From: Pontibacter aquaedesilientis
GTDB lineage: Bacteria > Bacteroidota > Bacteroidia > Cytophagales > Hymenobacteraceae
Assembly (NCBI RefSeq): GCF_014773225.1
Contig: NZ_JACXAJ010000005.1
Span: forward strand, 62,001 to 126,000
Direction: 5' to 3'
DNA: 64,000 nucleotides
Of the stretch, positions 44,834 through 61,327 are shown piece by piece. The notes below the pieces were generated by a model. It did not search any database and had not been told where the DNA came from. It saw nothing but the letters and a program-made list of their open reading frames with translations. Within the stretch, counting starts at the first letter, position 1. Every line of letters begins with the position of its first letter. Made by a program: the position numbers and the translations under genes.

Positions 44834-45434
44834 GTCACTTTACAAAAAATAGAACAAAACAAAGGCACCTAAATTCGTACTGTATTCCGGGATTGCAGAG
44901 TGACGTATTCCGCGACATGATCCTTTCAGTTTATTGCTTGCCCTTAACAATTTTCAAAGCAACGGGCTTTGCCAACTTTCTCATCACACGCAGCCTTAAT
45001 AATTTGACAAAAAAACGCTGCGTATACCTGCTTTTTTTTAATTGTACTGGCTCGCAACCTTCGGTTTTTACGAAATGAAAAATCCTGCCTCTCCGCACTT
45101 TTACTTGTAAAACATCCGCTAAATGCCAGTCTCATTATCTGGCAAATCACTCTATATCTTACCATTACAGCAACATAACGGCATTTGACGTAGTTATGAC
45201 GTAGCCAAAAAGCAACCATGATGTGGCTACTTTTTATGAATTTCCTGATAACATCCCTAAACTTATAACACGGAATAATCTAGAGGGCTGACCGGGGATT
45301 TCACCGCAACAAAAAGCTGTGCCTATAGCTGCTCCACATAACGTCCGGGGCATGGTGTAAGACCATACTTTATCTACTTACGATTACATATTTCTCACCT
45401 AAATAAATTGAGTTTAATCAATAATAAATAATTT
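44834..45434. other. Gene-free region before the SusC gene, 601 bp
   Basis: No supported gene. A frame across 44443-45078 is a shadow of the antiporter. The last 75 bp before the susC ATG are very AT-rich and should hold the promoter of the sugar operon, but no exact TAnnTTTG is present. This is consistent with activator-dependent transcription. TTTGACG and a direct GACGTAG repeat at 45187-45203 could be part of a binding site. Confidence 0.6.
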
Positions 45435-48400
45435 ATGAGAAAATACTTATTCACCGCTATGGGTTGTCTTAGCATGGTTGCCTGCATGAACTCAGTTTCC
45501 TATGCAGATAATCCAGGCCAAGTACGACTCAAAAAAGAGAAAGCCTACGCCAAGACGGTGACAGGCCGCGTAACAGCCGACACGGGCGAGCCACTGATTG
45601 GCGCAAGCGTCTCGCTTAAGGGAACCTCAACCGGGGCTATCACCGATGCCAATGGCAATTATACCGTAACCGTACCTGATGAGGGCGGCATTCTGGTTGT
45701 GTCTTACATTGGGTTTCTGCAGCAGGAAGTGCCGATTAATGATCATACCACTATCAATATTAAGCTTCAAACAGATGCCAAGGCATTGGAAGAGGTAGTG
45801 GTAATTGGCTATGGCGTACAAAAGAAAAGTGTCGTGACCGGCGCTATCTCCAGTGTGCGTGCCACAGACCTCGAGAATCAGCAGATCACCAGGGTAGAGC
45901 AGGCGCTTCAGGGCAGAGCTTCCGGTGTGACGGTAGCATCCAACTCCGGTGCTCCCGGCGCGGCGGCCACCGTTAGGGTAAGAGGCATCACAACGCTGAA
46001 CAGCAACGAGCCACTTTATGTAGTAGATGGCGTGGTAGTAAACGGAGGCATTGATTTCCTGAACCAGTCCGACATCGAATCTATTGAAGTGCTGAAAGAT
46101 GCTGCCTCAGCTGCCATTTATGGTACACGTGGCGCAGCTGGTGTTATCCTGGTAACGACCAAAAAAGGCCGTCAGGGTTCTGTCAGAATTAATTACAATG
46201 CCTATGTAGGCACACAGGCGCCGGTAAGAAAGCTGGACCTGTTGAACGCAACGGAATATGCCACTCTTCGCAACGAAGCGTCAGTGGCCGGTGGCGGTGG
46301 CATTGTGTATGATAATCCACGCGCATTGGGAGAAGGCACCGATTGGCAAGAGTACGTTTTCAATGACAACGCCCTTATACAGAGCCACGACTTCGCTTTT
46401 AGCGGCGGCAACGACAAATCCACGTTCTATGCTTCTTATGGCTATCTGGACCAGCAAGGCATCGTCACAAGCGACATTTCAAACTACGAACGGCACAACA
46501 TCCGCCTGAACTCTACCCACAAAGCAGCCAAATGGCTAACCATCGGGCAGACACTGGGCTACTCTCACATCAAGAGCCAGGGTGGTCTGAATGCCAACAC
46601 GGAGTTCGGCGGTCCGCTTAGCTCTGCCATCAACCTCGACCCTACTACACCGGTTCTCATCACCGACCGTGCGATTCTGGATGATCCGGAAAGCGTTTAC
46701 AACAGACAGCCTGTTGTAAGAAACGCTCAGGGCTTCCCTTACGGCATTTCGACTACCGTGCAGCAGGAAATGACTAACCCACTGGCCTATATTCAGACGC
46801 AATTGGGCAACTATGGCTGGTCCGACAACATCGTGGGCAATGCCTTTGTAGAAATAGAGCCGCTAACTGGCCTGAAAGTACGATCGACACTGGGTGGCAA
46901 GCTGGCCTTCTGGGGCGGCGAAAGCTACAGACCGATCTATTACCTGAATGCCTCTACAACCAGTCAGCAGACGGCCAGAAGCCGTGACCGGAACATGGTG
47001 CTGGATTACAACATCGAGAACACCATTTCTTATGCCCGTAAGTTCAGCAACCATAACTTAGCAATACTATTAGGCCAGGGTGCTTATAAAGACGGCGAAT
47101 CCGACGGGCTCGGCGTATCCTATACCGCTATACCTGCCACCAATTTCAAAGAGGCCTCCTTTAACCTGCAGGTACCTACGGCCAATATCAATGCTTACGG
47201 GTATGATGCCGTGGCACACACTGTTAGTTCACTTTTTGGTCGTGTCACCTACGATTTCAATGAGAAATACCTGTTTACGGGTATCATCCGGCGTGACGGC
47301 TCTTCGAGGTTCGGATCCAACAACAAATACGGTTACTTCCCTTCCATCTCAGTAGGATGGGTTGCATCGAACGAAGCATTCTGGCCTAGCAACCAGGTAG
47401 TGGACTTCCTGAAAGTGCGTGGTTCCTATGGTGTGGTTGGCAATGACAATACCGGCAACTTCGGTTATATCTCCACCGTTGGCTCTGGCAGAAACTATAC
47501 CTTCGGCTACGAAGGCTATACCATCGGTTACAGCCCGAACGCTCCGGCCAACCCTGACCTGCGTTGGGAGGAAACAGCCCAGACCAACATCGGCTTCGAG
47601 ACCACCCTTTTCAACTCCATTAACTTCACTTTTGACTGGTTCAACAAAAAGACGAACGGCATTTTGAGACCGCTTGAACTGCCTGGCTACGTGGGCTCAA
47701 CCGGTTTCCCGCTGGCGAACATTGCTGACATGCAGAACAAAGGTATAGAACTTGAGCTAGGCTATAACCGCCAGATAGGCGAATTCAATTTAGGTGTAAC
47801 GGGCAACGCCTCTTATGTGAAGAATGAGATTCTTGCGCTCGAGAGCGGTAAAGAATTCACAGAAGACGGGGCTGCCAGCATCCAGACCTTCAACGGCCGG
47901 TTGAACCGCATGATCGTGGGACAGCCCTATGGCGCTTTCTATGGTTACAAGACAAATGGCATCTTCCAGAACGAAGAAGAAGTAGCCGCCTATGTTAATT
48001 CGGCAGGACAGGTGATTCAGCCAAATGCCAAGCCTGGTGACTTCCGTTGGGTAGACGCGAACGACGACGGCCAGATTAACGCCGATGACCGCATGGTACT
48101 GGGCAAGCCACTTCCTGACTGGACATTCGGTTTAACGCTGAACGCCTCCTGGAAAAACTTCGACATGATGGTATTCGGACAGGGTGTGACGGGCAACAAG
48201 ATCTTCCAGGGTCTGCGCCGCCTCGAGATTACCAACGCCAACTGGCAGACCAGAGCACTGGGCCGCTGGACCGGCGAAGGCACCTCCAACGACTACCCAA
48301 GACTGTCTACCACCGATCCGAACAACAACTTCTCCAACCCTTCTGACTTCTACTTAGAGGATGGCGATTACTTCAGGATCAAAACTTTCCAGATCGGCTA

Positions 48401-48593
48401 TACCTTGCCAAGCACACTCACCGATAAAATTTCCCTGCAAAAGGCACGGTTCTATGTGAGCGCCAACAACCTGCTGACCTTCACCAAATACACAGGCTAT
48501 GACCCTGAGATCGGTGGCAACATTATGGGTGTAGATCGTGCTTTCTACCCACAGGCACGCACCCTGATGGCTGGCGTTAACATTGGCTTTTAG
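45435..48593 (+). CDS. SusC/RagA family TonB-dependent outer-membrane transporter
   Basis: A 1052-residue transporter that imports oligosaccharides with the SusD lid protein. It starts with a signal peptide (residues about 1-25). A carboxypeptidase-regulatory-like domain follows (VTGRVTADTGEPLIGASVSL ... NGNYTVTVPDEG ... YIGFLQQEV), then a TonB-box region (LEEVVVIGYGVQKKS). The plug carries the SusC signatures LQGRASGVTV, VRVRGITTLNSNEPLYVVDG and DAASAAIYGTRGAAGVILVTT. The rest is a 22-strand barrel ending RTLMAGVNIGF. It is the first gene of the glucan locus, 27 bp before susD. The substrate is inferred from the GH16/GH30/GH3 neighbours. Confidence 0.95.
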   Translation: MRKYLFTAMGCLSMVACMNSVSYADNPGQVRLKKEKAYAKTVTGRVTADTGEPLIGASVSLKGTSTGAITDANGNYTVTVPDEGGILVVSYIGFLQQEVPINDHTTINIKLQTDAKALEEVVVIGYGVQKKSVVTGAISSVRATDLENQQITRVEQALQGRASGVTVASNSGAPGAAATVRVRGITTLNSNEPLYVVDGVVVNGGIDFLNQSDIESIEVLKDAASAAIYGTRGAAGVILVTTKKGRQGSVRINYNAYVGTQAPVRKLDLLNATEYATLRNEASVAGGGGIVYDNPRALGEGTDWQEYVFNDNALIQSHDFAFSGGNDKSTFYASYGYLDQQGIVTSDISNYERHNIRLNSTHKAAKWLTIGQTLGYSHIKSQGGLNANTEFGGPLSSAINLDPTTPVLITDRAILDDPESVYNRQPVVRNAQGFPYGISTTVQQEMTNPLAYIQTQLGNYGWSDNIVGNAFVEIEPLTGLKVRSTLGGKLAFWGGESYRPIYYLNASTTSQQTARSRDRNMVLDYNIENTISYARKFSNHNLAILLGQGAYKDGESDGLGVSYTAIPATNFKEASFNLQVPTANINAYGYDAVAHTVSSLFGRVTYDFNEKYLFTGIIRRDGSSRFGSNNKYGYFPSISVGWVASNEAFWPSNQVVDFLKVRGSYGVVGNDNTGNFGYISTVGSGRNYTFGYEGYTIGYSPNAPANPDLRWEETAQTNIGFETTLFNSINFTFDWFNKKTNGILRPLELPGYVGSTGFPLANIADMQNKGIELELGYNRQIGEFNLGVTGNASYVKNEILALESGKEFTEDGAASIQTFNGRLNRMIVGQPYGAFYGYKTNGIFQNEEEVAAYVNSAGQVIQPNAKPGDFRWVDANDDGQINADDRMVLGKPLPDWTFGLTLNASWKNFDMMVFGQGVTGNKIFQGLRRLEITNANWQTRALGRWTGEGTSNDYPRLSTTDPNNNFSNPSDFYLEDGDYFRIKTFQIGYTLPSTLTDKISLQKARFYVSANNLLTFTKYTGYDPEIGGNIMGVDRAFYPQARTLMAGVNIGF

Positions 48594-48620
48594 TCTGACA
48601 GATTTAAAAAAAGAAGCAAC

Positions 48621-50120
48621 ATGAAAAGAAGATATATCACATACATCGCCTGCATCGCACTAGGTCTGCCTTTGCTAAGTTCGTGCAAGGATGAATTCCT
48701 GGAAGTGGACCCAAAAGGCACTATCCTGGAGTCAAACTATTATAAAAATCCGGAAGAAGCCTATGCAGGCTTAGTAGCTGCTTACGACCCGCTGGGATGG
48801 CAAGCCGGCAACACCTTCCATAACTTCGGGGCAGTCAATGCCGCCTCCGACGACGCACACGCTGGCGGTGGAGGTCCTTCGGACATGAACACCTGGCAGG
48901 TATGGAACAGATTTACCTTGAACCCGGCCATTGGTCCGCAGGAGGAATACTGGAACAGGAACTTCCGGGGCGTATCCCGCGCCAATACGATCTTGTCGAA
49001 AGTGGAGGCCGGTGTTCCGGGACTGTCGGAAAACATGAAGGCCAGGTTTATAGCGGAGGCAAAATTCCTGCGTGCTTATTACTACTTCGATTTGGTACGC
49101 CTTTTCAAGAATGTCCCTCTTTTCACGGCTCCGCTGGCAACATCAGAGCTGTTCAGCCAGGAACAGGCTACTCCGGAGCAGGTATACGCCCAGATAGAGA
49201 AAGACCTGACAGAGGCTATACCTAACCTGCCAGCAACAGTTCCAGCCTCCACAGAAGGTGGACGCGTGACACAGGGCGCCGGCAAAGCCTTGCTGGGCAA
49301 AGTGCTGCTGTACCAAAGCAAGTGGGCAGCGGCGGCAACGCAACTGGCAGACGTGAACGGTACTCCTGGCGGCACCAGCATGTATGGTTACCGACTGCTC
49401 GATGACTATGGCAAGATTTTCAGCCCGGCCAACAAATTTAACAGCGAAGCTATTTTTGAGATTGTGCATACCTCGCTTGCCAACGGCGGCTGGGGCAGCT
49501 GGCCAAACTTCGAAGGAAACCTTGCGGTGCTGATGTTTGGGCCAAGGGGCTATACAGGACCAACCTACGAAGCCGGATGGGGTTTTAACCCGCTTACCAA
49601 AGACCTGGTGAATGCCCTGACCGGTGACCCCCGTTATGAGCATACCGTGCTGGATATCAAAAAAGTAGAAGGAGCGGTTTACGAGCCCGGTTTCGATGAC
49701 ACGGGTTACTTCGTGAAAAAATATGCCCCTACAACGGAGTGGTTGAGCAAAGGCGGTGGCGATGTGATCCTGAACTACCCGAACAACTACATTGAAATGC
49801 GCCTGGCGGACACCTACCTGATGGAAGCCGAAGCGCTGGTACAGGCTGGCGGCAACGCTGCCCGAGCAGGACAACTGCTCAATGCCGTGCGAGCCCGCGT
49901 AGGCCTTGCACCGGTAGCAGCCACCCTGGATAACATCTACCGGGAAAGAAGACTGGAACTGGCAACTGAAGGGCACCGCTTTTATGACTTGGTGCGCACG
50001 GGCAGAGCCGCTGCAGTGTTGGCCCCGATGGGTTTTGTGGCTGGAAAGCACGAAGTGCTACCAATCCCGCAAAATGAGCTGATTAACACAAAGCTGGTCC
50101 AAAACCCTGCATACAAATAA
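48621..50120 (+). CDS. SusD/RagB family glycan-binding lipoprotein
   Basis: A 499-residue lipoprotein (lipobox PLLSSC, Cys22) whose next residues KDEF match the acidic Bacteroidota surface-export signal. The SusD pattern is clear: FLEVDPKGTILESNYYKNPEEAYAGLVAAYDPL at the start, FIAEAKFLRAYYYFDLVRLF in the TPR core, and the closing IPQNELINTKLVQNPAYK. Helix pairs, GKALLGKVLLYQSKW and IYRERRLELATEGHRFYDLVR, also fit. It forms the lid of the SusC pore at the cell surface. Confidence 0.95.
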   Translation: MKRRYITYIACIALGLPLLSSCKDEFLEVDPKGTILESNYYKNPEEAYAGLVAAYDPLGWQAGNTFHNFGAVNAASDDAHAGGGGPSDMNTWQVWNRFTLNPAIGPQEEYWNRNFRGVSRANTILSKVEAGVPGLSENMKARFIAEAKFLRAYYYFDLVRLFKNVPLFTAPLATSELFSQEQATPEQVYAQIEKDLTEAIPNLPATVPASTEGGRVTQGAGKALLGKVLLYQSKWAAAATQLADVNGTPGGTSMYGYRLLDDYGKIFSPANKFNSEAIFEIVHTSLANGGWGSWPNFEGNLAVLMFGPRGYTGPTYEAGWGFNPLTKDLVNALTGDPRYEHTVLDIKKVEGAVYEPGFDDTGYFVKKYAPTTEWLSKGGGDVILNYPNNYIEMRLADTYLMEAEALVQAGGNAARAGQLLNAVRARVGLAPVAATLDNIYRERRLELATEGHRFYDLVRTGRAAAVLAPMGFVAGKHEVLPIPQNELINTKLVQNPAYK

Positions 50121-50153
50121 TAGACAGGTCCATAACCTTAACTCTAGAAAATC

Positions 50154-51587
50154 ATGAAATATAATAGACTTATATCCAGCGTTTGCTTCTACCTGGCAAT
50201 GGCGTTGCTAACGGGTGCCTATACCGCCTGTACGCCGGATGAAATGGAGGGTGGGCTGGCGCCTGCCCCAAGGTCGGAGGAAGTGCAGTTTACAGCCACT
50301 CCCACGGCCAGCAACCCAAACATCATCACTTTCACCAACACGACTCCGGGTGCTTTTAAGGCCATCTGGGATTTCGGAAACGGTGGCACGGCAGAAGGTA
50401 ACCAGGTAAACGGCTCGTTCCCGGTGGAAGGAAGCTACACCGTGAAGCTGACCATCTTCACGAGCGGAGGCTATGCTTCCAACACCAAAACCATCGCCAT
50501 CGCCAAGACCAATGTGTCGATGCTGGACAGAGAAGACTATAATTTCCTGACCGGTGGCGCTGCCAAAGCCAATGGAAAGACCTGGGTGATCGACAGACAC
50601 AAAGCAGGTCACATGGGCGTTGGCCCTATCGGCGCGGCAACGCCGGAATGGTGGTCTGCTGCACCAAACGACAAAGCTTCGGAAGGTTTGTATGACGACG
50701 AAATGACCTTTAACCTGAACGGCTTTGCCTATACCTACCAGAACAATGGCAACACCTTCGTGAACGGCTCAAATGCCGCTGGCCTGGGTGGAACGGCGCA
50801 GTCTAGCGACTATACCTTGTCTTACACCCCTCCTACTAACATGGTATGGAGCATGGTAGAGGAAGGCGGCAAAAAATACCTGGTGCTCTCCAACAAGGGC
50901 TTCATAGGATACTACACGGGTGTTTCGCGCTATGAGATCCTGTCGTTGTCAGAGAATGTGCTATACCTGAAAGGAGGAGACGGAGCCAATGCCGGAAATG
51001 GCTGGTGGCTGCGCCTTGTACCGAAAGGCTTTGTTCATCCGGTGGAGGCCCGCCCTTACAAAATGGAGAATATGTTCGATAACTTCGACGAGGATGGCAA
51101 TCTGGTTTGGAAAAAAGAGACCCTCACCCTCAACGAAAGCTACGACAACCCTGCCCCTGTTCCGATCAACACATCAGCCAAAGTAGCCATGTATGTGAAG
51201 CAGGAAGGCCCGGGATACATGTTCGCCAATATGTTTGCCGACTTCGCCTTTGACTTCGACCTAAGCAAGCGCAGCGTTTTCAAGCTCAAGGTATTCATTC
51301 CTAGCTACAACGACTTTAATACCATGGCCGGCGAGGACTGGGCGATCAAGACGCTGCTCAAGCAGGTATCTGTTAAGTTGCAAGATGGCACAAAGCCACA
51401 ACCTTGGGCTAACCAGGTGGAAATCAAGCAAGAGGTGACCCAACTGGACAAATGGGTGGAGCTTACGTTTGACTTCTCAAAATTCGCTGAAAGAAAGGAT
51501 CTTAACCGGGTACTGATCCAAATTGGCGGCGAAGGAAACCACATACCAGGCATTTTCTTCCTGGACGACTTCAGATTAGAGCAATAA
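50154..51587 (+). CDS. PKD-domain lipoprotein, probable surface glycan-binding protein
   Basis: A 477-residue lipoprotein (lipobox GAYTAC, Cys26, then TPDEME, an acidic surface signal). Residues about 40-115 form a PKD domain (FKAIWDFGNGGTAEGN ... GSYTVKLTIFTSGGY). The middle part (WVIDRHKAGHMGVGP ... YLVLSNKGFIGYYTG) resembles segments found in SusE-position proteins of laminarin loci. The last about 160 residues look like a beta-sandwich carbohydrate-binding module (FKLKVFIPSYNDF ... FLDDFRLEQ). Third position after susC-susD is where surface glycan-binding proteins sit. The role is inferred from position and domain content. Confidence 0.8.
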   Translation: MKYNRLISSVCFYLAMALLTGAYTACTPDEMEGGLAPAPRSEEVQFTATPTASNPNIITFTNTTPGAFKAIWDFGNGGTAEGNQVNGSFPVEGSYTVKLTIFTSGGYASNTKTIAIAKTNVSMLDREDYNFLTGGAAKANGKTWVIDRHKAGHMGVGPIGAATPEWWSAAPNDKASEGLYDDEMTFNLNGFAYTYQNNGNTFVNGSNAAGLGGTAQSSDYTLSYTPPTNMVWSMVEEGGKKYLVLSNKGFIGYYTGVSRYEILSLSENVLYLKGGDGANAGNGWWLRLVPKGFVHPVEARPYKMENMFDNFDEDGNLVWKKETLTLNESYDNPAPVPINTSAKVAMYVKQEGPGYMFANMFADFAFDFDLSKRSVFKLKVFIPSYNDFNTMAGEDWAIKTLLKQVSVKLQDGTKPQPWANQVEIKQEVTQLDKWVELTFDFSKFAERKDLNRVLIQIGGEGNHIPGIFFLDDFRLEQ

Positions 51588-51684
51588 GGGTGAATAAGTG
51601 AAAGAGGCCGGGGCCTGGAGTAGGCCTCAGCCGTCTTTTAACTGCCGCATCGACCTGATTTTATTTCTTTTACCATATCGTCTT

Positions 51685-52566
51685 ATGAGTTTTATTACTC
51701 CCATAAAAACCATCTCTGCCTTACTGGCAACCAGTGCTGTTTGCTTCTCATTTGCCTTTTCTTCCTGCAAAAACGGAGCAGAGGAGTCCCAGCCTTATAT
51801 TTCCCAACCGAAGGCCCCCCAGGACCTGAACTGGCAGTTTGAGTCCGCCCCCGTTTGGGCCGACGAGTTTGACTATACCGGTCAGCCAAACCCCGATAAA
51901 TGGGGCTACGACATAGGCGGAACCGGTTGGGGGAATAATGAACTGCAATTCTATACCAACAAAGCCAGCAATGCCAGCGTGGCAAACGGTATCCTTAAAA
52001 TTACGGCCAGAAGGGAAAACACAGAAGGCAAAGAATACTCCTCCGCCAGACTGGTTACCAAAAACAAAGGCGACTTTTTATACGGCCGGTTCGAGATAAA
52101 AGCCAAGCTCCCGACAGGGCTGGGCACCTGGCCCGCCATCTGGATGCTGCCAACCGACTGGGCTTATGGCGGATGGCCTAGATCCGGCGAGATCGACATT
52201 ATGGAGCATGTGGGCTACGATCAGAACAATGTGCACATTACGGTACACACAGAGGCCTACAACCACAGCAAAAACACCCAGAAAGGAAAAAGCAAGATCA
52301 TCGAAACGGCTAGCACGGCCTTCCACCTCTATCGGGTTGACTGGACTCCCTACGCTATAAGGGGCTATATAGACGACCTGCCTGTTTTTGAATTTATAAA
52401 TGAGGGCAAAGGAATCAACGAATGGCCTTTCGATAAGCGGTTTCACCTGCTGCTAAATATTGCCGTTGGCGGCAACTGGGGTGGCGCCAAAGGGGTGGAC
52501 CCAAGTGTATTTCCGCAGACCATGGAAGTAGATTATGTGAGGGTTTACAAAATGATACAGAAGTAA
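51685..52566 (+). CDS. GH16 family beta-glucanase (laminarinase-like), lipoprotein
   Basis: The frame is open from 51598, but the ATG at 51685 begins a lipoprotein signal (lipobox FAFSSC, Cys28). The 293-residue enzyme has the GH16 catalytic motif EIDIMEH with Glu169 (nucleophile), Asp171 and Glu174 (acid/base). Other GH16 blocks are WGYDIGGTGWGNNELQFYT, YGRFEIKAKLPTGLGTWPAI and RFHLLLNIAVGGNWGG. The sequence resembles the laminarinase (endo-beta-1,3-glucanase) subfamily GH16_3. After the cysteine comes KNGAEES, moderately acidic, so surface display is likely. It should cut the beta-1,3 backbone before import. Confidence 0.92.
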   Translation: MSFITPIKTISALLATSAVCFSFAFSSCKNGAEESQPYISQPKAPQDLNWQFESAPVWADEFDYTGQPNPDKWGYDIGGTGWGNNELQFYTNKASNASVANGILKITARRENTEGKEYSSARLVTKNKGDFLYGRFEIKAKLPTGLGTWPAIWMLPTDWAYGGWPRSGEIDIMEHVGYDQNNVHITVHTEAYNHSKNTQKGKSKIIETASTAFHLYRVDWTPYAIRGYIDDLPVFEFINEGKGINEWPFDKRFHLLLNIAVGGNWGGAKGVDPSVFPQTMEVDYVRVYKMIQK

Positions 52567-52607
52567 ATTCCAATCTGGTCTTAGTAAGCTTCGGTGGCTT
52601 ACACAAC

Positions 52608-54125
52608 ATGAAAAGGTATGCCAGAAAGCAACGGCTATACCTGAATGGCTCACCAACTAACCTTAAAAAGGTGAATTACTTTGCTGCAAGTTACTTCCCG
52701 AAACATTGGTGGTTGCTCCTGGCTATTCCCTTTGCAATTTCCTGCAAAAAGGAAGTCAGTGAATCAGGTACAGGATCCAGTTCGAAGGAAGAACTGACCG
52801 GCCGCAAGGTGAACCTTTGGTTGACAGATCCATCCACATCAGTGCTGTTTAAGCAGCAAATTACTCCGCTTACATTTGGGGCTTCCGAAAATCAGCATCC
52901 CACCATCACCGTTGACACCACAGAGACTTTCCAGACCATGGACGGCTTTGGCTATACCTTGACCGGGGGAAGCGCCCTGCTCCTCAACAAGATGTCACCC
53001 GCAGCCCGGGCAGACCTCTTGAAGGAGCTTTTTGCGACGGATGGCAATAACATTGGTGTCAGTTATCTCAGGCTCAGCATCGGGGCATCGGACTTAAGCA
53101 GCCATGTCTTCTCTTACAACGACCTGCCTGCCGGGCAAACTGACCCTGACATGATGAAATTCGACCTGGGTCCGGACCGTGCCGATCTTATACCTGTGCT
53201 AAAGGAAATACTGACCGTTAATCCGGGTATTAAGCTGATGGGCTCGCCCTGGTCCCCTCCTACCTGGATGAAAACCAACAACAGCTCTATTGGCGGCAGC
53301 CTGAAACCGGAGTTCTACGATGCCTATGCGAAGTACTTCGTCAGGTATATACAGGCGATGGCGGCAGAAGGCATCCGGATAGATGCGATAACCGTACAGA
53401 ACGAGCCGCTGCACCCCGGCAATAACCCCAGTATGCTGATGCAGGCAACGGAGCAGGCACATTTCATCAAACAAAGCCTGGGCCCTGCTTTTCAGGCCGC
53501 CAATATCGGTACCAAGATCATCATCTATGACCATAACGCCGATCGGATAGATTACCCGATCAGCATCCTCAACGACCCGGAAGCCAATAAGTACATTGAT
53601 GGTTCGGCCTTTCACCTGTATGGCGGCAACATCGACGCCCTGAATCAGGTGCATCAAGCGCATCCGGACAAGAACCTGTACTTTACCGAACAGTGGGTGG
53701 GCGCACCCGGCAACCTGGCGGGCGATCTCAGCTGGCATACCAAAAACCTACTGATAGGTGCTACCCGCAACTGGTGTAAAACTGTGCTGGAATGGAACCT
53801 GGCCGCTGACGCCAACCAGGACCCGCATACCGAAGGCGGCTGTACCGAATGCCTGGGGGCCATTACGCTAAACGGTGGCGTAACCCGAAACCCGGCTTAC
53901 TACATTATCGCGCACGCCTCCAAATTTGTGAGGCCCGGCTCTGTGCGAGTTGCCTCGAACATGCTGGCAGGTATACCAAACGTGGCCTTCAAAACTCCGA
54001 ATGGTAGTAAGGTCCTGATTGTGCTGAATGAAGGCCCGGCTTCGCGGACTTTCAATATCCAGTTCAATGGAAAACTTGTCACTACTACCCTCGCCAAAGG
54101 GGCAGTAGGCACTTATGTATGGTAA
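52608..54125 (+). CDS. GH30 family beta-glycosidase (possible beta-1,6-glucanase), lipoprotein
   Basis: A 505-residue protein of the GH30 family. The acid/base Glu266 lies in TVQNEPLHPG and the nucleophile Glu361 in NLYFTEQWVG. DGFGYTLTGGSALLL and MGSPWSPPTWMKTN are family blocks. Bacteroidota GH30_3 enzymes cleave beta-1,6-glucan; together with GH16 and GH3 this points to beta-1,6 branches of laminarin. The lipobox is PFAISC with Cys46, giving an unusually long 45-residue signal. A GTG at 52671 would give a normal length and is a plausible alternative start. KKEVSES after the cysteine suits surface export. It lies 41 bp after the GH16 gene. Confidence 0.9.
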   Translation: MKRYARKQRLYLNGSPTNLKKVNYFAASYFPKHWWLLLAIPFAISCKKEVSESGTGSSSKEELTGRKVNLWLTDPSTSVLFKQQITPLTFGASENQHPTITVDTTETFQTMDGFGYTLTGGSALLLNKMSPAARADLLKELFATDGNNIGVSYLRLSIGASDLSSHVFSYNDLPAGQTDPDMMKFDLGPDRADLIPVLKEILTVNPGIKLMGSPWSPPTWMKTNNSSIGGSLKPEFYDAYAKYFVRYIQAMAAEGIRIDAITVQNEPLHPGNNPSMLMQATEQAHFIKQSLGPAFQAANIGTKIIIYDHNADRIDYPISILNDPEANKYIDGSAFHLYGGNIDALNQVHQAHPDKNLYFTEQWVGAPGNLAGDLSWHTKNLLIGATRNWCKTVLEWNLAADANQDPHTEGGCTECLGAITLNGGVTRNPAYYIIAHASKFVRPGSVRVASNMLAGIPNVAFKTPNGSKVLIVLNEGPASRTFNIQFNGKLVTTTLAKGAVGTYVW

Positions 54126-54356
54126 ATCGTATGGCCAAGCCGACCCTTAAAAGCAAGACTACTTTTATAAGGAAGACCAATCATTTTTGCTCGTTCCTGC
54201 CAGGTTTCAGAAACAGGAAATCTGGCAAAGCACTTTACCGGACGCTGACCAAAGCAAAACCGGAGGACGAGTGATCAGGGCTCTTACATCCTGATTGGTT
54301 CCCAAATTAACAATTGCCAATTGACTAGAAAGCATTACCCACCAAAACAAGACGCA

Positions 54357-56738
54357 ATGAAACTCAGAAATGTAACCCTGGCCACGGCAGCCGCCTTTGT
54401 ACTGCTTGCCGGTTGCCAGACTCCAAAACCTGCCGCAGAACCTGCTGCCAATACGGCTACCACGGTGCCTAACAAGGCAGGTATGTCGGAAATTGACAGA
54501 AAGATAGAAGACCTGCTCAGCCAGATGACCCTGGAAGAGAAAGTTGGCCAGATGGCGCAGATTACGTTGGATGTGGTAGGCAAGGGTGAGAACCGCTACT
54601 CCAGCTTTGAGCCATTCACGCTCGACACGGTGGAGCTAAGAAAGGCATTGCTTGACTACAAGATCGGATCGGTGCTGAACACGGCCAACAACCGCGCCCG
54701 CACGCCAGAGCAGTGGTATGCCATCATCAGCCAGATACAGGATGTGGCCATGAACAAGAGCCGCCTCAGCATACCGGTGATTTATGGCGTCGATCAGATA
54801 CATGGCGCTACCTATACCGCAGGCGGCACCATGTTTCCGCAGCAGATCGGCCAGGCCGCCAGCCGAAACCGTGAGCTGGTTCGACGCGGTGCCGAGATAA
54901 CCGCTTACGAAACACGCGCCAGCTCCATTCCCTGGAACTTCTCGCCTGTGCTCGACATGGGTCCCGACCCACGTTTTTCGCGCCAGTTCGAAACATTTGG
55001 TGAAGACCCTTACCTGATCTCAGAATTGGGTGTGCAGATGATCAAAGGGTATGAAGGTGACGACAACAACATCGGTCACCCGGAACATGTGGCATCGTGC
55101 ATGAAACACTTTCTGGGCTACCAGGTGCCTACGTCTGGCAAGGACAGAACACCGACCTATATTTCAGACGAAGCCCTGCGCGAGTATCACCTGCCCTCTT
55201 TCAAGGCAGCCATCGAAGCAGGCTCCCAGACGATCATGATCAACTCGGGCATTATCAACGGTGTGCCGGTGCACTCCAATCATGATATCCTGACCAAACT
55301 TTTGAAAGAGGAACTCGGCTTCAAAGGACTTGTGGTTACCGACTGGGGCGATATTGAGTACCTGCACACCCGCGACAAGGTAGCCGCCACCATGAAGGAC
55401 GCCATTAGGATGGCCATCAATGCGGGGGTAGACATGTCGATGATCGCTTATCAGTATGAGCCGTTTTGTGAAGGATTAGTGGAGCTCGTGCAGGAGGGTA
55501 AAGTAAAGCAAGAGCGTATCGATGACGCCGTGCGCCGTATCCTGCGCGTGAAGCATAACCTGAACCTGTTTGAGCAGCCTACGACTAATCCGAAGGACTA
55601 CCCTAAATTCGGCAGCAAAGAGTTTGAGGAGGCCGCTTACCAAATGGCCGCAGAGTCCATCACACTGCTCAAAAACGAAAACAACGTACTGCCCCTGCGC
55701 AAAAACATAAAAGTGCTGGTGACTGGCCCGAACGCCAACAGCATGCGCACGCTCAACGGTGCCTGGACCTACTCCTGGCAGGGCGAAAAGGTAGAGGAGT
55801 TCGCCGGCAGGTATAACACCATTGTGGAGGCATTGCAAAATGAGATCGGTGCTTCCAACGTGACCTTTTTGCCGGGTGTGAGCTATAAAATGGATGGCTT
55901 CTATTACGAGGAATTTGCTGATAAAATGGAGCAGGCAGTAGCAGCGGCCAAAAAATCAGATGTAATCATCCTTTGCCTCGGCGAAAACACCTCCACCGAA
56001 ACCCCGGGTAACATCAACGACATCTACATGTCGGACCTGCAGACCGAACTGGCCCGAAAAATGACCCAGACTGGCAAGCCGGTGATCCTGGTGCTCAACG
56101 AGGGCCGGCCACGGGTGATCAGCCGCTTTGAGCAGCAGATGAAAGGCATTGTGCAAATCTATCAGCCGGGCAACTTTGGCGGCGATGCACTGGCAGATGT
56201 ACTGTTTGGCGATGTGAACCCATCCGGCAAACTACCCTATAACTACCCGCGCTACCCAAATGCCCTGGTACCGTTTATACACAAGCCATCGGCAGAGCAG
56301 CGCAAGGCGGAAGGGGTGTACAATTACGAGGCCGACTACAACCCGCAGTATGAGTTCGGCCACGGCCTGAGCTATACCTCCTTTAAGTATGACAACCTTA
56401 CTCTAAAAGAAAACATCAAGATGGGCGAACCGATCCAGGTAAGTGTGCGGGTGACCAACACAGGTGCCAGAGAAGGAAAAGAGGTGGTGCACCTTTACTC
56501 CTCTGACCTCTATGCGACAGGTATAACCCCAGACGTAAAGCGCCTTCGCCGCTTCGAGAAGATTTCCCTGAAGCCTCAGGAAAGCAAAACCGTTTCCTTC
56601 ACGCTGACGGCCGATGACCTGAGCTACACAGGCCGCGACGGACGTAAAATCACGGAGGCCGGGGAGTTTGAGATCCGGGTAGGCGATCAGGTAAAGAAAT
56701 TCACGCTCCTTAATCCGGATGCCATCGGGACCAACTAA
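54357..56738 (+). CDS. GH3 family beta-glucosidase, lipoprotein
   Basis: I use the ATG at 54357 (MKLRNVTLATAAAFVLLAGC, lipobox LLAGC, Cys20) rather than the in-frame TTG at 54321. The 793-residue enzyme has the GH3 nucleophile Asp329 in GLVVTDWGDIEYL and the substrate-binding MKHFLGY. The second alpha/beta domain (ESITLLKNENNVLPL ... ILCLGENTSTETPG) and a C-terminal Fn3-like domain (VRVTNTGAREGKEVVHLY) follow. It releases glucose from beta-linked oligosaccharides. QTPKPAAE after the cysteine lacks an acidic surface signal, so it probably faces the periplasm. A 231-bp gap from the GH30 gene suggests a possible own promoter. A terminator follows. Confidence 0.92.
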   Translation: MKLRNVTLATAAAFVLLAGCQTPKPAAEPAANTATTVPNKAGMSEIDRKIEDLLSQMTLEEKVGQMAQITLDVVGKGENRYSSFEPFTLDTVELRKALLDYKIGSVLNTANNRARTPEQWYAIISQIQDVAMNKSRLSIPVIYGVDQIHGATYTAGGTMFPQQIGQAASRNRELVRRGAEITAYETRASSIPWNFSPVLDMGPDPRFSRQFETFGEDPYLISELGVQMIKGYEGDDNNIGHPEHVASCMKHFLGYQVPTSGKDRTPTYISDEALREYHLPSFKAAIEAGSQTIMINSGIINGVPVHSNHDILTKLLKEELGFKGLVVTDWGDIEYLHTRDKVAATMKDAIRMAINAGVDMSMIAYQYEPFCEGLVELVQEGKVKQERIDDAVRRILRVKHNLNLFEQPTTNPKDYPKFGSKEFEEAAYQMAAESITLLKNENNVLPLRKNIKVLVTGPNANSMRTLNGAWTYSWQGEKVEEFAGRYNTIVEALQNEIGASNVTFLPGVSYKMDGFYYEEFADKMEQAVAAAKKSDVIILCLGENTSTETPGNINDIYMSDLQTELARKMTQTGKPVILVLNEGRPRVISRFEQQMKGIVQIYQPGNFGGDALADVLFGDVNPSGKLPYNYPRYPNALVPFIHKPSAEQRKAEGVYNYEADYNPQYEFGHGLSYTSFKYDNLTLKENIKMGEPIQVSVRVTNTGAREGKEVVHLYSSDLYATGITPDVKRLRRFEKISLKPQESKTVSFTLTADDLSYTGRDGRKITEAGEFEIRVGDQVKKFTLLNPDAIGTN

Positions 56739-56858: not shown

Positions 56859-59792
56859 TTAGTATTTAAGAATGCATTCTGTCAGACTTTCGTCATGCTC
56901 CAGGTTCATCTTTTTCCGGATCCTATACCTGCTGGTCTCCACGCCCCGCAGCGAGAGCTTAAGCAGGGAGGCAATGTCTTTGCTGGACAGGTTCAGACGC
57001 AGGTAGGCGCACATTTTCAAATCCTTGTGGGTGAGTTCCGGGTAGTCGTTGCTCAGGCGTTTCAAAAAGTCCTGGTGCACCTGATTGAAATGCAGCTCGA
57101 ACTGCTCCCAGTTGTTCTCAATCTTGATCTCTTCATCCACAGAGCGTAAAATCTTCCGAAGCTGCTGCCTGGTTTCTTTGTCGTTTACCTCATCCAGCAC
57201 ACGCTGCAACTGATCTTTTACTTTGTGCACGGCCTCCATGTTCTGCATTACATGCAGGGCCGAGGAGGTCAATTCCTGGGACTTATGGCTGAGCTCGCTC
57301 TCCAGTTTTTCGTTGTTAAGCCGGATTATTTCCTTTTCGGCTTTTAGCACTTCTTCCATGTGTTGGGCCTCTTTGAGTCTGAGCGCCTTCTCCTGCTCCT
57401 GCCTCAGCTTTTTCTTGGTTTCGCTAATATGCCGGTCTATGATTTTCCAGAGCAGTATACCCAGCAACACGCCAAACAACACATAGAAGGTATAAGCCCA
57501 TCCCGACCTGTACCAGGGAGGCGAGATACTGAAGGTATAGAAGGCCTCTTCGCTCTCCTGATTGTAAATGTTCCGGGCCCTGACACGGAAGGTATAGGTC
57601 CCTTCCCTCAGATTGGTGTACTCTTTCTGCAGCGTTGTCATCCAGGGCGACCAGCCTTCGTCAAAGCCATCCAGGAAATATTTGTACTGCACATCCTCTA
57701 TCCCATCGTAAAGAATGGACCCAAAAGTAAACTTAAGGGAGTTCAGGGTATAGGGCAGCGTTGGGATACTGTGTTCCGGCTGCACGCTCTCCGCAAGGCC
57801 ATTATTCACAAAGGAACCTCCGTAAATAAGTGAGTCCGAGGCCTGCTTCCTGACCTCAACCCGTCGGATAAGCGTTGTAAACCGTTCCTGCAAGCTGCTT
57901 TTCTGCAGATAAGTGGGGCGGTATTGCACGAAGCCCTCATCTATACCTATCAGCACATTCTGATTGTTGTAATAGGCAATATGCTCAAAGCCTCCCACCA
58001 GTTTGCCTTCCAGTTTATTGAAAACGTTTTTGGTGACCTCGTAGCTGCCGTTGCTCAGTTTCCGGATAACGCCCATCTCAGCTCCAGCCGAAAACCACAC
58101 GTTTCCTTCCTTGTCTTCCACCAGCTTGCTTACCTGCACGTCCTTGTCGAAGAGGCGGTTGAGTTCGTCGTATACCTCAAACCGGTCTGTATTCTTGTTG
58201 TAGTGGTATATGCCTCGCAGCCCGGTGAACACGAGCTTTCCGTTGATTTTAAAAACATTGATGCCCAGGTTGGAAGGAAAACCATGTTTCTCCCCGTAGA
58301 AGCTGACCTTCTCCGCTTTTTTGAGATCTTTGGAGAGCTTCATTTTAAACAGTCCGATGTAGCCATGGGCGATCCATAGATTTCCCTCACTGTCTTCTTC
58401 CATCACCCGCGAAGACTCGTCGAATCCCTGTATACTGTTCTGAAAAATGAGTTGGCCATCCACCATTTTGTAGAGCAGCAACCCGAAATAGGTACCACAG
58501 ATAAAGTAGTTTGGCCTGGATTTTAGTTGTAGGAACTTCCAGGCTCCCCGATGGTCTGATAGCTTAACGGCCTTGTTATCTATAATCTCAAAAGGACCAT
58601 TGTGATGCGAAAGCAGGAGCTTGCCGCCTAGCTTTTGCAGGTTGTATACCTGTCCCTCTGCGTTCTCCACACGCTGCAGCGGCATCGGGTTCAGTGGGTT
58701 CTCATGCTCAGAAATGGCTTTATAGAATAATCCATCGCTTGTACCAAAGTATAGCTTGGAGTTGTTCAGCAGAGAGGTATAGCCGGTTCCGGGCAGGCCC
58801 ATCCGGTCGTTGAAAATAGTGAATGGGGAGTTGGCCTCCACATAGTCGATCCCGTTGTTGAGTGCCAGCCACAGGTTTTCTTTCCGATCCTGGTAAATGC
58901 CACGGACAGTGCTGTTCTGCAACCCTTTTTCGCGGTTGAGGTGCTGCCTGGGCTGTCCGTCCATGTCGATCACCACCAGCCCGTTCAGGGTTGTGCCAAT
59001 CGCGTACCCGTCTGATAAAGTAATTGCCGTGTTCACTTTGTTTTTGATCAGGAAAGGCTCCACCGCCCAGTTGCTGGCACTGAATCCACTATACCCGTCA
59101 TACAGGAAAATGCCGTTGTCTTCTGTTACGATCAGGGCTTTCCCTCCCGGGTAGGGCAGTATAGACGCCAACGTGTAGTTTGCGACTCGCTCACTGCCCG
59201 GAATTAGTACCAATTTTTCGTTCTTCAGCTCAAAGAGCCCTTTGCCCAATACCGGTACCAGCAGTTTCCCCTGAACAAAGGATGGGAAGCCAGTCGGTTC
59301 GTGGGGTGTCCTGTATACCTTTATCTTGTTGTCTTTGTAATGATACACACCTGACACAGTGCAGAAGAAGACCTCCTCATCCTGGGTATAGATATTCCAG
59401 ACATCCGCAAAGCTACTATCCTTGTGAGTGATGTAAGGCTTAAGCGACACAAAAGCCATGAGCCCCTGCTCGTCGGGTTGCAAATAGCCGAATTCATTCT
59501 GCCCGCCAACATACACCCGCCCCTCTTTGCTGATAGCAAGCGAGCGCACAGTCGACCGGTTGGGCAGCCCCAGTCGGCGCCAATGGTTCCCGTCGAACTC
59601 CAGCACACCATAGTTATTCCCGATGTACATGATCCCGCGGTGGTCCTGCACAACGGCCCAGTTCTGAGGAGATGCCTGATATTCCTTCAGGCCGTAGTTT
59701 TTGATATAGGGCACCCCTTCATTCCTGATCTGCGCATGAAGCCGACCACAGAAGAGAAGTAAAAGCAATAGAACGGATAGATACTTTTTCAC
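56859..59792 (-). CDS. Two-component-propeller/Y_Y_Y sensor with C-terminal LuxR-type DNA-binding domain, no kinase
   Basis: A 977-residue protein with a signal peptide (cleavage after RLHAQ). A long beta-propeller sensor covers residues about 30-680, with repeated GVLEFDGNHWRRLGLP-, NLWLALNNGIDY- and VWFSAGAEMG-type blades. Then come a Y_Y_Y domain (about 700-765: FLDGFDEGWSPWMTTLQKEY), one membrane segment (about 775-795), a Lys/Glu-rich coiled coil (about 798-870) and a C-terminal helix-turn-helix (KDLKMCAYLRLNLSSKDIASLLKLSLRGVETS). Classical hybrid two-component systems share the sensor but have kinase and receiver domains; none are present here. The HTH would have to act while tethered to the membrane. 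It is convergent with the glucan locus and is its likely regulator. Confidence 0.9.
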   Translation of the reverse strand: MKKYLSVLLLLLLFCGRLHAQIRNEGVPYIKNYGLKEYQASPQNWAVVQDHRGIMYIGNNYGVLEFDGNHWRRLGLPNRSTVRSLAISKEGRVYVGGQNEFGYLQPDEQGLMAFVSLKPYITHKDSSFADVWNIYTQDEEVFFCTVSGVYHYKDNKIKVYRTPHEPTGFPSFVQGKLLVPVLGKGLFELKNEKLVLIPGSERVANYTLASILPYPGGKALIVTEDNGIFLYDGYSGFSASNWAVEPFLIKNKVNTAITLSDGYAIGTTLNGLVVIDMDGQPRQHLNREKGLQNSTVRGIYQDRKENLWLALNNGIDYVEANSPFTIFNDRMGLPGTGYTSLLNNSKLYFGTSDGLFYKAISEHENPLNPMPLQRVENAEGQVYNLQKLGGKLLLSHHNGPFEIIDNKAVKLSDHRGAWKFLQLKSRPNYFICGTYFGLLLYKMVDGQLIFQNSIQGFDESSRVMEEDSEGNLWIAHGYIGLFKMKLSKDLKKAEKVSFYGEKHGFPSNLGINVFKINGKLVFTGLRGIYHYNKNTDRFEVYDELNRLFDKDVQVSKLVEDKEGNVWFSAGAEMGVIRKLSNGSYEVTKNVFNKLEGKLVGGFEHIAYYNNQNVLIGIDEGFVQYRPTYLQKSSLQERFTTLIRRVEVRKQASDSLIYGGSFVNNGLAESVQPEHSIPTLPYTLNSLKFTFGSILYDGIEDVQYKYFLDGFDEGWSPWMTTLQKEYTNLREGTYTFRVRARNIYNQESEEAFYTFSISPPWYRSGWAYTFYVLFGVLLGILLWKIIDRHISETKKKLRQEQEKALRLKEAQHMEEVLKAEKEIIRLNNEKLESELSHKSQELTSSALHVMQNMEAVHKVKDQLQRVLDEVNDKETRQQLRKILRSVDEEIKIENNWEQFELHFNQVHQDFLKRLSNDYPELTHKDLKMCAYLRLNLSSKDIASLLKLSLRGVETSRYRIRKKMNLEHDESLTECILKY

Positions 59793-60046: not shown

Positions 60047-61327
60047 CTAGTAGTTCCAGGGGTATAGCTCGGGTTCTTTGGCGCCTCTCACCTTCATATG
60101 GAGCGGATGGACGCCTTCGGTCTCGTCAAAGTACATAAAGGCATCATAGCGTTCGTGAATGATGGTAGGTACATAATTGCCTAGGTGCTCCAACTTTGGG
60201 TCATACACAACCCCGATGGCCCGGTGCGGAATAGGGCTTTGCAGTTCCGGCACCTCTTTCAAGTCTTTGGAGAGGATAATCTTGTCGTCGGTACTCATTT
60301 CGTGCAGCATATGCTCCCAGCTTCCTTCCTTGGCTGGCGGCACCTCCATCTTCTGCATAGGGGCACCCCATGACCTGCCAGCGATCACATTGCCCTGGTA
60401 GGTGCCAAACCCCACCAGCTTTACCTGGTCGCGGCCGTACTTCTCCCGGGCCAGTTGCCCGATGTTATACATGCCATCGTTGGCCATATCGGTGAAGCGG
60501 GCATCGCCGATGTGCGTGTTGTGCTCCCAAATAATAGCCTTGGAGTTTGGTCCGTGAAAATCCAGCAAACGATCCAGGGTATCCATCATGTGCGTGTCGC
60601 GCACGTTCCAGGAGTTTACCCCACCCCTGATCATAGCGCGGTAATATTTCTCAGCATTCACGGCCACCAACGCATTCTGGGTCGTGCTGAACTCATGCTC
60701 CGGATCATCCGGGTATACCGGCCGGCGGTATACCTGCTCCAGCATCTGCACCACCTCGTCTTCGCAGTCGGTCGGCACAAAAGCGGTGGCTTGCGCATAG
60801 GTTTGCGGATCGCGGTGGTAGGGTTCGAAGCAGCGTACGGCATTGCGGGCCACCTCTGCGGCTCGTCCGTCATGCTTCTCCATATACTTGAGCACCTGCT
60901 CCAGCGACTCCCACAGGCTGTACACATCCAGCCCGTAGAATCCGGCTTTTTCATTTACTTTACGGAGATGGTTAAAATCCCTGATCCACTCAATTAGGGC
61001 TGCCACTTCCCAGTTGGCCCACATCCAGGTCGGCCAGCGGCGGTATACCTCCAGCACGTCGGCAATTTTCCGCCCGGAGTCCTGATAGCCCTTCACGAAA
61101 CGGTTCACGGCATAACATTCCGGCCAGTCGCCCTCCACCGCTATAAAGTCAAACCCTTTGTCTTCTATTAACCGCCGGGAGATGGCCGTGCGCCAGGTAT
61201 AGTACTCGGATGTGCCATGCGAAGCCTCTCCCAGCATGACCACACGGGCATCTCCGATTTCCTCTATCAGAGCGTCGAGGTCTTTTTCTTTGGTGATGGT
61301 GCTGTATTTGAAACGTTTGTTTTCCAT
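60047..61327 (-). CDS. Erythromycin esterase family protein
   Basis: A 426-residue protein with the family pattern: ARVVMLGEASHGTSEYY (catalytic-type Glu and His), FDFIAVEGDWPECYAVNRF, FYGLDVYSLWESLEQVLKY, NVRDTHMMDTLDRLL, IIWEHNTHIGDARFTDM and GFGTYQGNVIAG. Members in pathogens open macrolide rings, but many environmental members have unknown substrates. Resistance should not be assumed. It has its own -7 promoter element 27 bp upstream and lies 254 bp before the regulator gene on the same strand. Confidence 0.9.
   Translation of the reverse strand: MENKRFKYSTITKEKDLDALIEEIGDARVVMLGEASHGTSEYYTWRTAISRRLIEDKGFDFIAVEGDWPECYAVNRFVKGYQDSGRKIADVLEVYRRWPTWMWANWEVAALIEWIRDFNHLRKVNEKAGFYGLDVYSLWESLEQVLKYMEKHDGRAAEVARNAVRCFEPYHRDPQTYAQATAFVPTDCEDEVVQMLEQVYRRPVYPDDPEHEFSTTQNALVAVNAEKYYRAMIRGGVNSWNVRDTHMMDTLDRLLDFHGPNSKAIIWEHNTHIGDARFTDMANDGMYNIGQLAREKYGRDQVKLVGFGTYQGNVIAGRSWGAPMQKMEVPPAKEGSWEHMLHEMSTDDKIILSKDLKEVPELQSPIPHRAIGVVYDPKLEHLGNYVPTIIHERYDAFMYFDETEGVHPLHMKVRGAKEPELYPWNY

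Follow-up and report, generated by a model that had tools for sequence, protein, structure and literature searches.

A probable kinase-less membrane regulator and a predicted operator array at a putative beta-glucan locus of Pontibacter

The locus examined here lies in a window of 64,000 nucleotides (the whole stretch of DNA analysed) from Pontibacter aquaedesilientis, and it raises the question of how a regulator carrying the sensor of a hybrid two-component system, and no kinase, could pass a signal from a periplasmic glycan to a promoter. For Bacteroidota glycan loci, the available text of PMC3878776 and PMC10316084 names three types of regulator: pairs of ECF sigma and anti-sigma factors, SusR-like proteins and hybrid two-component systems. 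An earlier note on this DNA proposed that a single protein, with no kinase, links the periplasm to the promoter, and this proposal is well supported by the anatomy of the protein, by conserved linkage, and by a conserved array upstream of susC. The same note described the regulator (REG) as a hybrid two-component system minus some of its parts, a description that does not hold: the architecture is standard and widespread in Bacteroidota, and REG is a member of a widespread family encoded beside susC/susD, not a degraded hybrid two-component system.

The locus and its regulator

The forward strand encodes a susC-like TonB-dependent transporter (45435–48593; Pfam), a susD-like glycan-binding lipoprotein (48621–50120; Pfam SusD_RagB), a PKD-domain protein that is likely a surface glycan-binding protein (50154–51587; Pfam PKD), a GH16 protein that is likely a beta-glucanase (51598–52566; Pfam 1.2e-25), a GH30 protein (52608–54125; Pfam 3e-44), and a GH3 protein whose gene is convergent with REG (54321–56738; Pfam 4.5e-71). 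Judged by these GH families, the likely substrate of the locus at 45435–56738 is a beta-glucan. All 18 orthologue loci fetched from Pontibacter hold GH16, and 17 of them hold susC/susD; the stretch of the last one stops at a contig end. An Erythromycin-esterase family protein (60047–61327 of the window) adjoins REG, and this position is kept in most orthologue loci. In four of the 18 orthologue loci (L058, L059, L064 and L065, at about 19400–19998 on the window-oriented strand), a second, divergent SusC (45–49% identity) has its start immediately upstream of the regulator, so two transporters may be under REG-type control in those loci.

REG is a 977-residue open reading frame with a GTG start (56859–59792, reverse strand, as are all of its parts). 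From N- to C-terminus it comprises a signal peptide (residues about 1–20, 59733–59792, from hydropathy only), a propeller sensor (about 21–690, 57723–59732), a Y_Y_Y domain (695–756, 57525–57710; Pfam 2e-10), a single transmembrane helix (about 764–786, 57435–57503, from hydropathy only), a long-helix or coil region (about 790–905, 57078–57425, from conservation and an AF2 model of residues 800–977), and a LuxR/NarL-type HTH (about 918–972, 56877–57041, assigned from Pfam GerE, Foldseek and the half-site co-variation described below). Hydropathy analysis gives the membrane segment as residues about 763–789, with a K/R-rich stretch right after it. The predicted topology puts the sensor in the periplasm and both the coil and the HTH in the cytoplasm.

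The Reg_prop repeats of the sensor are matched by Pfam at E = 3.4e-15, and hmmsearch against PDB sequences relates the sensor to 3v9f (BT3049; 2.5e-32) and 4a2l (BT4663; 2.2e-25), the same two structures that rank first in a Foldseek search with the full-length model, which is of modest quality (pLDDT 67.7). Folded alone, the C-terminal 178 residues form two long helices and a four-helix HTH in AF2 (800–977, pLDDT 81.6). The PDB matches listed by Foldseek for this region are NarL/LuxR-type proteins, at E-values of about 0.04–0.4, none of them reaching 0.001, for a query that is mostly coil. The isolated DNA-binding domains of ComA, LiaR and VraR fit the HTH at rmsd 1.3–1.6 Å (E about 0.06–0.2), and the predicted model has the four-helix DNA-binding fold of GerE type. 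GerE itself is matched at 920–970 (5.3e-5, 23.2 bits, slightly below the 23.5 cut-off), and the coil-HTH module matches NF053779 across residues 775–972 (2.1e-4). Pfam, hydropathy, AF2 and Foldseek thus confirm the propeller plus Y_Y_Y sensor, membrane segment, coil and LuxR-like HTH named in the earlier note. The absence of kinase, receiver and AraC domains, also claimed there, was borne out by a Pfam profile search: HisKA, HATPase_c, Response_reg and AraC gave no match in REG at E<=0.01, and kinase, receiver and AraC families were found in none of 38 diverse long relatives (window included), of which 31 match Y_Y_Y, 28 Reg_prop, 23 GerE and 14 Sigma70_r4_2.

Orthologues of REG are 50–79% identical. 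Of 148 Bacteroidota genomes, 91 have a match to a profile of the coil-HTH module (A3) at E<=1e-6; many of the matching frames are 900–1050 residues long and others are shorter, with frames of 500–700 residues carrying the module in many genomes. Outside the main Pontibacter group, a SusC gene lies within the fetched stretch at 53 of 75 loci. Pfam scans of the neighbours in some flavobacterium-like loci gave no clue to the substrate, the genes there being mostly housekeeping. The genome of the window has one copy of the coil-HTH module and two Y_Y_Y proteins, REG and a histidine kinase. A protein of Algoriphagus (L012, 8001–10865) carries the same propeller/Y_Y_Y sensor with HisKA in the place of the coil and HTH, a natural case of the exchange of sensor and output in evolution.

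The propeller and Y_Y_Y sensor is common to REG and the hybrid two-component systems BT4663 and BT3049, whereas REG lacks their histidine kinase, receiver and AraC domains. SusR is the closer functional precedent, being described in the available text of PMC3878776 as a membrane protein with a periplasmic sensor, a cytoplasmic HTH and no kinase that activates adjacent susC/D loci. REG has the same layout of periplasmic sensor, transmembrane helix and cytoplasmic C-terminal HTH without a kinase. The comparison with ToxR drawn in the earlier note is, given the C-terminal LuxR-type HTH, a distant analogy only. In ToxR and CadC a membrane-tethered DNA-binding domain acts on promoters, and that domain is N-terminal, preceding the transmembrane segment, and an OmpR-type winged helix, whereas the HTH of REG is C-terminal and of LuxR/NarL type.

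SusR presumably belongs to DUF6377. Taken as a stand-in for SusR (BT3705), the DUF6377 HTH is only remotely similar to that of REG (hhalign probability 78.7, E 1.7e-5), and an HMM hit (domain E 5e-4) was obtained in one of 20 DUF6377 loci. DUF6377 proteins share the order sensor, transmembrane segment, coil and HTH with REG, but the three scanned have neither Reg_prop nor Y_Y_Y, both of which REG has; they form a parallel family, perhaps that of SusR. The DUF6377 set holds 20 rows, corresponding to 19 distinct proteins by position, and SusC-type frames occur in eight of the 20 loci. These proteins (L190–L209) are about 550 residues long, with the membrane segment at about 320–370 followed by coil and HTH, and their genes often adjoin a SusC or GH3-like frame. 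Shorter proteins, the BT3442 family (NF053779) among them, also have the C-terminal coil-HTH module; the available text of PMC2954219 describes BT3442 as a TPR-containing protein and mentions no propeller sensor, and a search of 198 genomes found nothing for the BT3442 family. The first gene of many flavobacterial laminarin clusters is annotated LuxR in PMC13188888 (2026), the available text of which gives no mechanism, sensor or operator for these genes. They probably belong to the REG class.

The array upstream of susC

The promoter region that the earlier note named for a binding assay with the C-terminal domain of REG (44834–45434) does hold a conserved operator-like array, which, like the signal peptide of REG and the breadth of its family, is an addition to that note. 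Most of the 601-bp gap ahead of susC shows little conservation; the exceptions are a single block and, just after it, a promoter-like stretch, the mean top-base frequency across 18 loci being 0.82 inside the block and 0.48 in the rest of 420 bp. In the window the block is a predicted operator of four direct 11-bp repeats, TGACGTAGTTA, TGACGTAGCCA, AAAAGCAACCA and TGATGTGGCTA (45186–45229, forward strand, from the 18-locus alignment), and begins 249 bp before the start codon of susC. The core of the repeat is GTAG; units 1 and 2 are strong in the window and units 3 and 4 weaker (GCAA, GTGG). Four in-register 11-bp units with GTAG cores or variants are present in 18 of 18 Pontibacter loci, units 3 and 4 being the most diverged in the array of L062. 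SusR-like motifs predicted in PMC3878776 are, in its available text, direct repeats with two boxes separated by 67 or 77 bp, whereas the predicted operator of REG is a tandem 11-bp array.

Abutting the array in the same alignment is a promoter-like segment (45230–45266, forward strand) with a T-rich/TTTG-like element and TAAACTTAT about 20 bp on; a TAAxxTTAT-like element lies about 20 bp past the T-rich/TTTG element in most Pontibacter loci. Promoters of Bacteroidetes have a -33/-7 consensus, and because the array abuts elements resembling such a promoter, its position is plausible for an activator.

When one mismatch is allowed, the block pattern matches 18 of 50 genomes of the genus, comprising 17 of 19 with an orthologue of REG and one of 31 without, and it matches once in the genome of the window; as the pattern was built from the same loci, the informative findings are that it is missing elsewhere and that it occurs singly. 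The two orthologue-bearing genomes that were missed (G157 and G172) do carry the block, with the third unit changed. At two of the 20 pattern sites (L109 and L110) the surrounding stretch has no gene of this locus. In genome G183 the site occurs with the same SusC but with no close orthologue of the regulator. SusC matches there in two frames, split at the site (L103, 11–875), so this locus, and its SusC in particular, may be decaying.

Arrays and putative half-site classes beyond the main Pontibacter group

With a matrix derived from the main Pontibacter group only, 75 loci from other genera or from paralogues were scanned. In 35 of the 75 the top-scoring pair at 11-bp spacing falls within the regulator/SusC flanks, against 7.0 expected by length. 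Flank counts at spacings of 8 to 16 bp are 34, 8, 15, 35, 7, 13, 21, 12 and 19, respectively; the second unit often reads TGTAGTRG and so matches at a spacing of 8 too, which explains why the count at 8 nearly equals that at 11. In dinucleotide shuffles of 50 regulator-SusC intergenic regions, p<=0.01 was reached by 15 of 18 from Pontibacter paralogues and 12 of 32 from other genera, and p<=0.05 by 16 of 18 and 20 of 32, respectively, a clear operator site being missing (p>0.05) in the other 12 of the 32. The loci counted are related, so these counts and tests lack phylogenetic independence.

The most independent of the operator tests is an exact two-repeat search with TGANGTAGTNNTGANGTAG over 392 genomes of the phylum, which returned 12 sites in 12 genomes, all 12 in clusters that hold a REG-class regulator. 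Ten lie within 1.5 kb of the regulator. The remaining two, each about 12 kb from one, are the site in the window and a site 189 bp ahead of the first gene in a SusC/SusD/GH3 cluster whose last gene is such a regulator. In all six genomes without prior sequence input (G350, G308, G232, G440, G250 and G427) the regulator adjoins the exact site. Chance would give about three sites in the 392 genomes by a rough estimate assuming fixed bases and even composition, which AT-rich genomes would alter; the backward control of this search is invalid, as the pattern nearly matches itself reversed.

The HTHs of 50 loci and the window were aligned, with sites scoring >=15 classed as strong and <8 as weak. 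Position 950, which in REG is a G within the segment SLRGVETSRYRIRKK, is G in 24 of 26 HTHs with strong sites (the window among them), whereas in the 15 loci with weak scores it is S in ten, G in four and A in one. TGA[ACT]GTAG occurs in the intergenic regions of 25 of 34 non-S-type loci versus none of 16 S-type loci. Conversely, five of the 13 S-type loci that lack a strong 11-bp site contain TGTTGTGGT, as against none of the other three and none of the 34 non-S-type loci. Such co-variation between half-site and HTH residue is the pattern that would be expected of a bound operator, and, as S-type members look mostly like one clade, it may reflect few evolutionary events. The TGTTGTGGT-like sites of S-type loci appear to form a second half-site class. 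Sites of this kind were seen in the regulator-SusC intergenic regions of L118, L122, L125, L132 and L136, some of them in 11-bp tandem.

Of 41 loci with co-directional regulator and SusC genes, 23 have a reverse-strand array no more than 120 bp past the regulator, 24 have a forward array at most 200 bp from the SusC frame, and 18 have both. The forward array mostly starts 85–100 bp ahead of the SusC frame, so that the paired inverted arrays sit one just past the regulator stop codon and one about 85–100 bp before susC. We tentatively propose, at a confidence somewhat short of even, that kinase-less membrane regulators across the phylum read helically phased 11-bp direct repeats, TGANGTAGT for G-type and TGTTGTGGT-like for S-type members, and that, where two inverted arrays flank the promoter, as they often do, membrane-anchored dimers could bridge them and loop the promoter at the inner membrane.

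Proposed mechanism and alternatives

With the domain order, the lack of a kinase, the linkage to the locus, the conserved array, the near-exclusive association of that array with the regulator class and the half-site co-variation all computed, REG is probably an inner-membrane one-component transcription activator of the neighbouring beta-glucan locus. The best reading, by analogy, is that it would work like SusR but with the sensor of a hybrid two-component system. The periplasmic propeller/Y_Y_Y sensor would bind an imported oligosaccharide, probably beta-1,3/1,6-gluco-oligomers, and the ligand-induced change would reach the coil through the one membrane helix. REG would dimerise, its coil perhaps setting the dimer state as the earlier note suggested. 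Its paired LuxR-type HTHs, still tethered to the membrane while binding DNA, would occupy the tandem 11-bp repeats of 45186–45229 in head-to-tail order along the same DNA face. From this site, immediately ahead of the promoter elements of susC, REG would recruit RNA polymerase and activate transcription.

The HTH might instead leave the membrane by regulated proteolysis, the sensor triggering a cut near the membrane so that a soluble coil-HTH fragment moves to the promoter. A single transmembrane helix and a long cytoplasmic linker would permit such a release, but nothing specific favours it and no protease gene was recognised among the scanned genes of the cluster; we regard this route as unlikely. 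The assignment of the operator to REG is itself a prediction, and the site in G183 without a close orthologue would be compatible with a different factor reading the array, with the linked regulator working at other sites or having just an indirect effect. That arrangement is decidedly improbable, however, since all 12 exact sites from the 392 genomes fall in loci with the REG class of regulator, an HTH residue and the half-site vary together, and no second sugar-type regulator was recognised among the scanned window genes near the locus.

It is least plausible, to the point of being very remote, that REG is a degenerate histidine kinase phosphorylated in trans, of whose H-box H847 would be a remnant. 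H847 is invariant in ten Pontibacter/Pseudochryseolinea sequences and lines up with the H-box in kinase L012, but wider relatives have N, A, S or H at this position, and HisKA is matched by none of the 38 members scanned. H847 was rejected as an H-box on the ground that, despite that alignment, it is not kept in the wider relatives. Activation by an intact, kinase-less membrane regulator is the reading that we retain.

A literature search, with subscription journals and preprints largely outside its reach, found no published operator or function for the REG class; the SusR-type precedent is known, and the operator of the REG class is unpublished as far as the literature was searched. The class joins the sensor of hybrid two-component systems to a short, one-protein circuit of SusR-like type, and in many genomes it is encoded next to susC/susD. 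With a recognisable operator, regulons could be predicted, and the 44-bp site predicted here offers a precise and cheap test of the control of gene expression by periplasmic glycan through one membrane protein.
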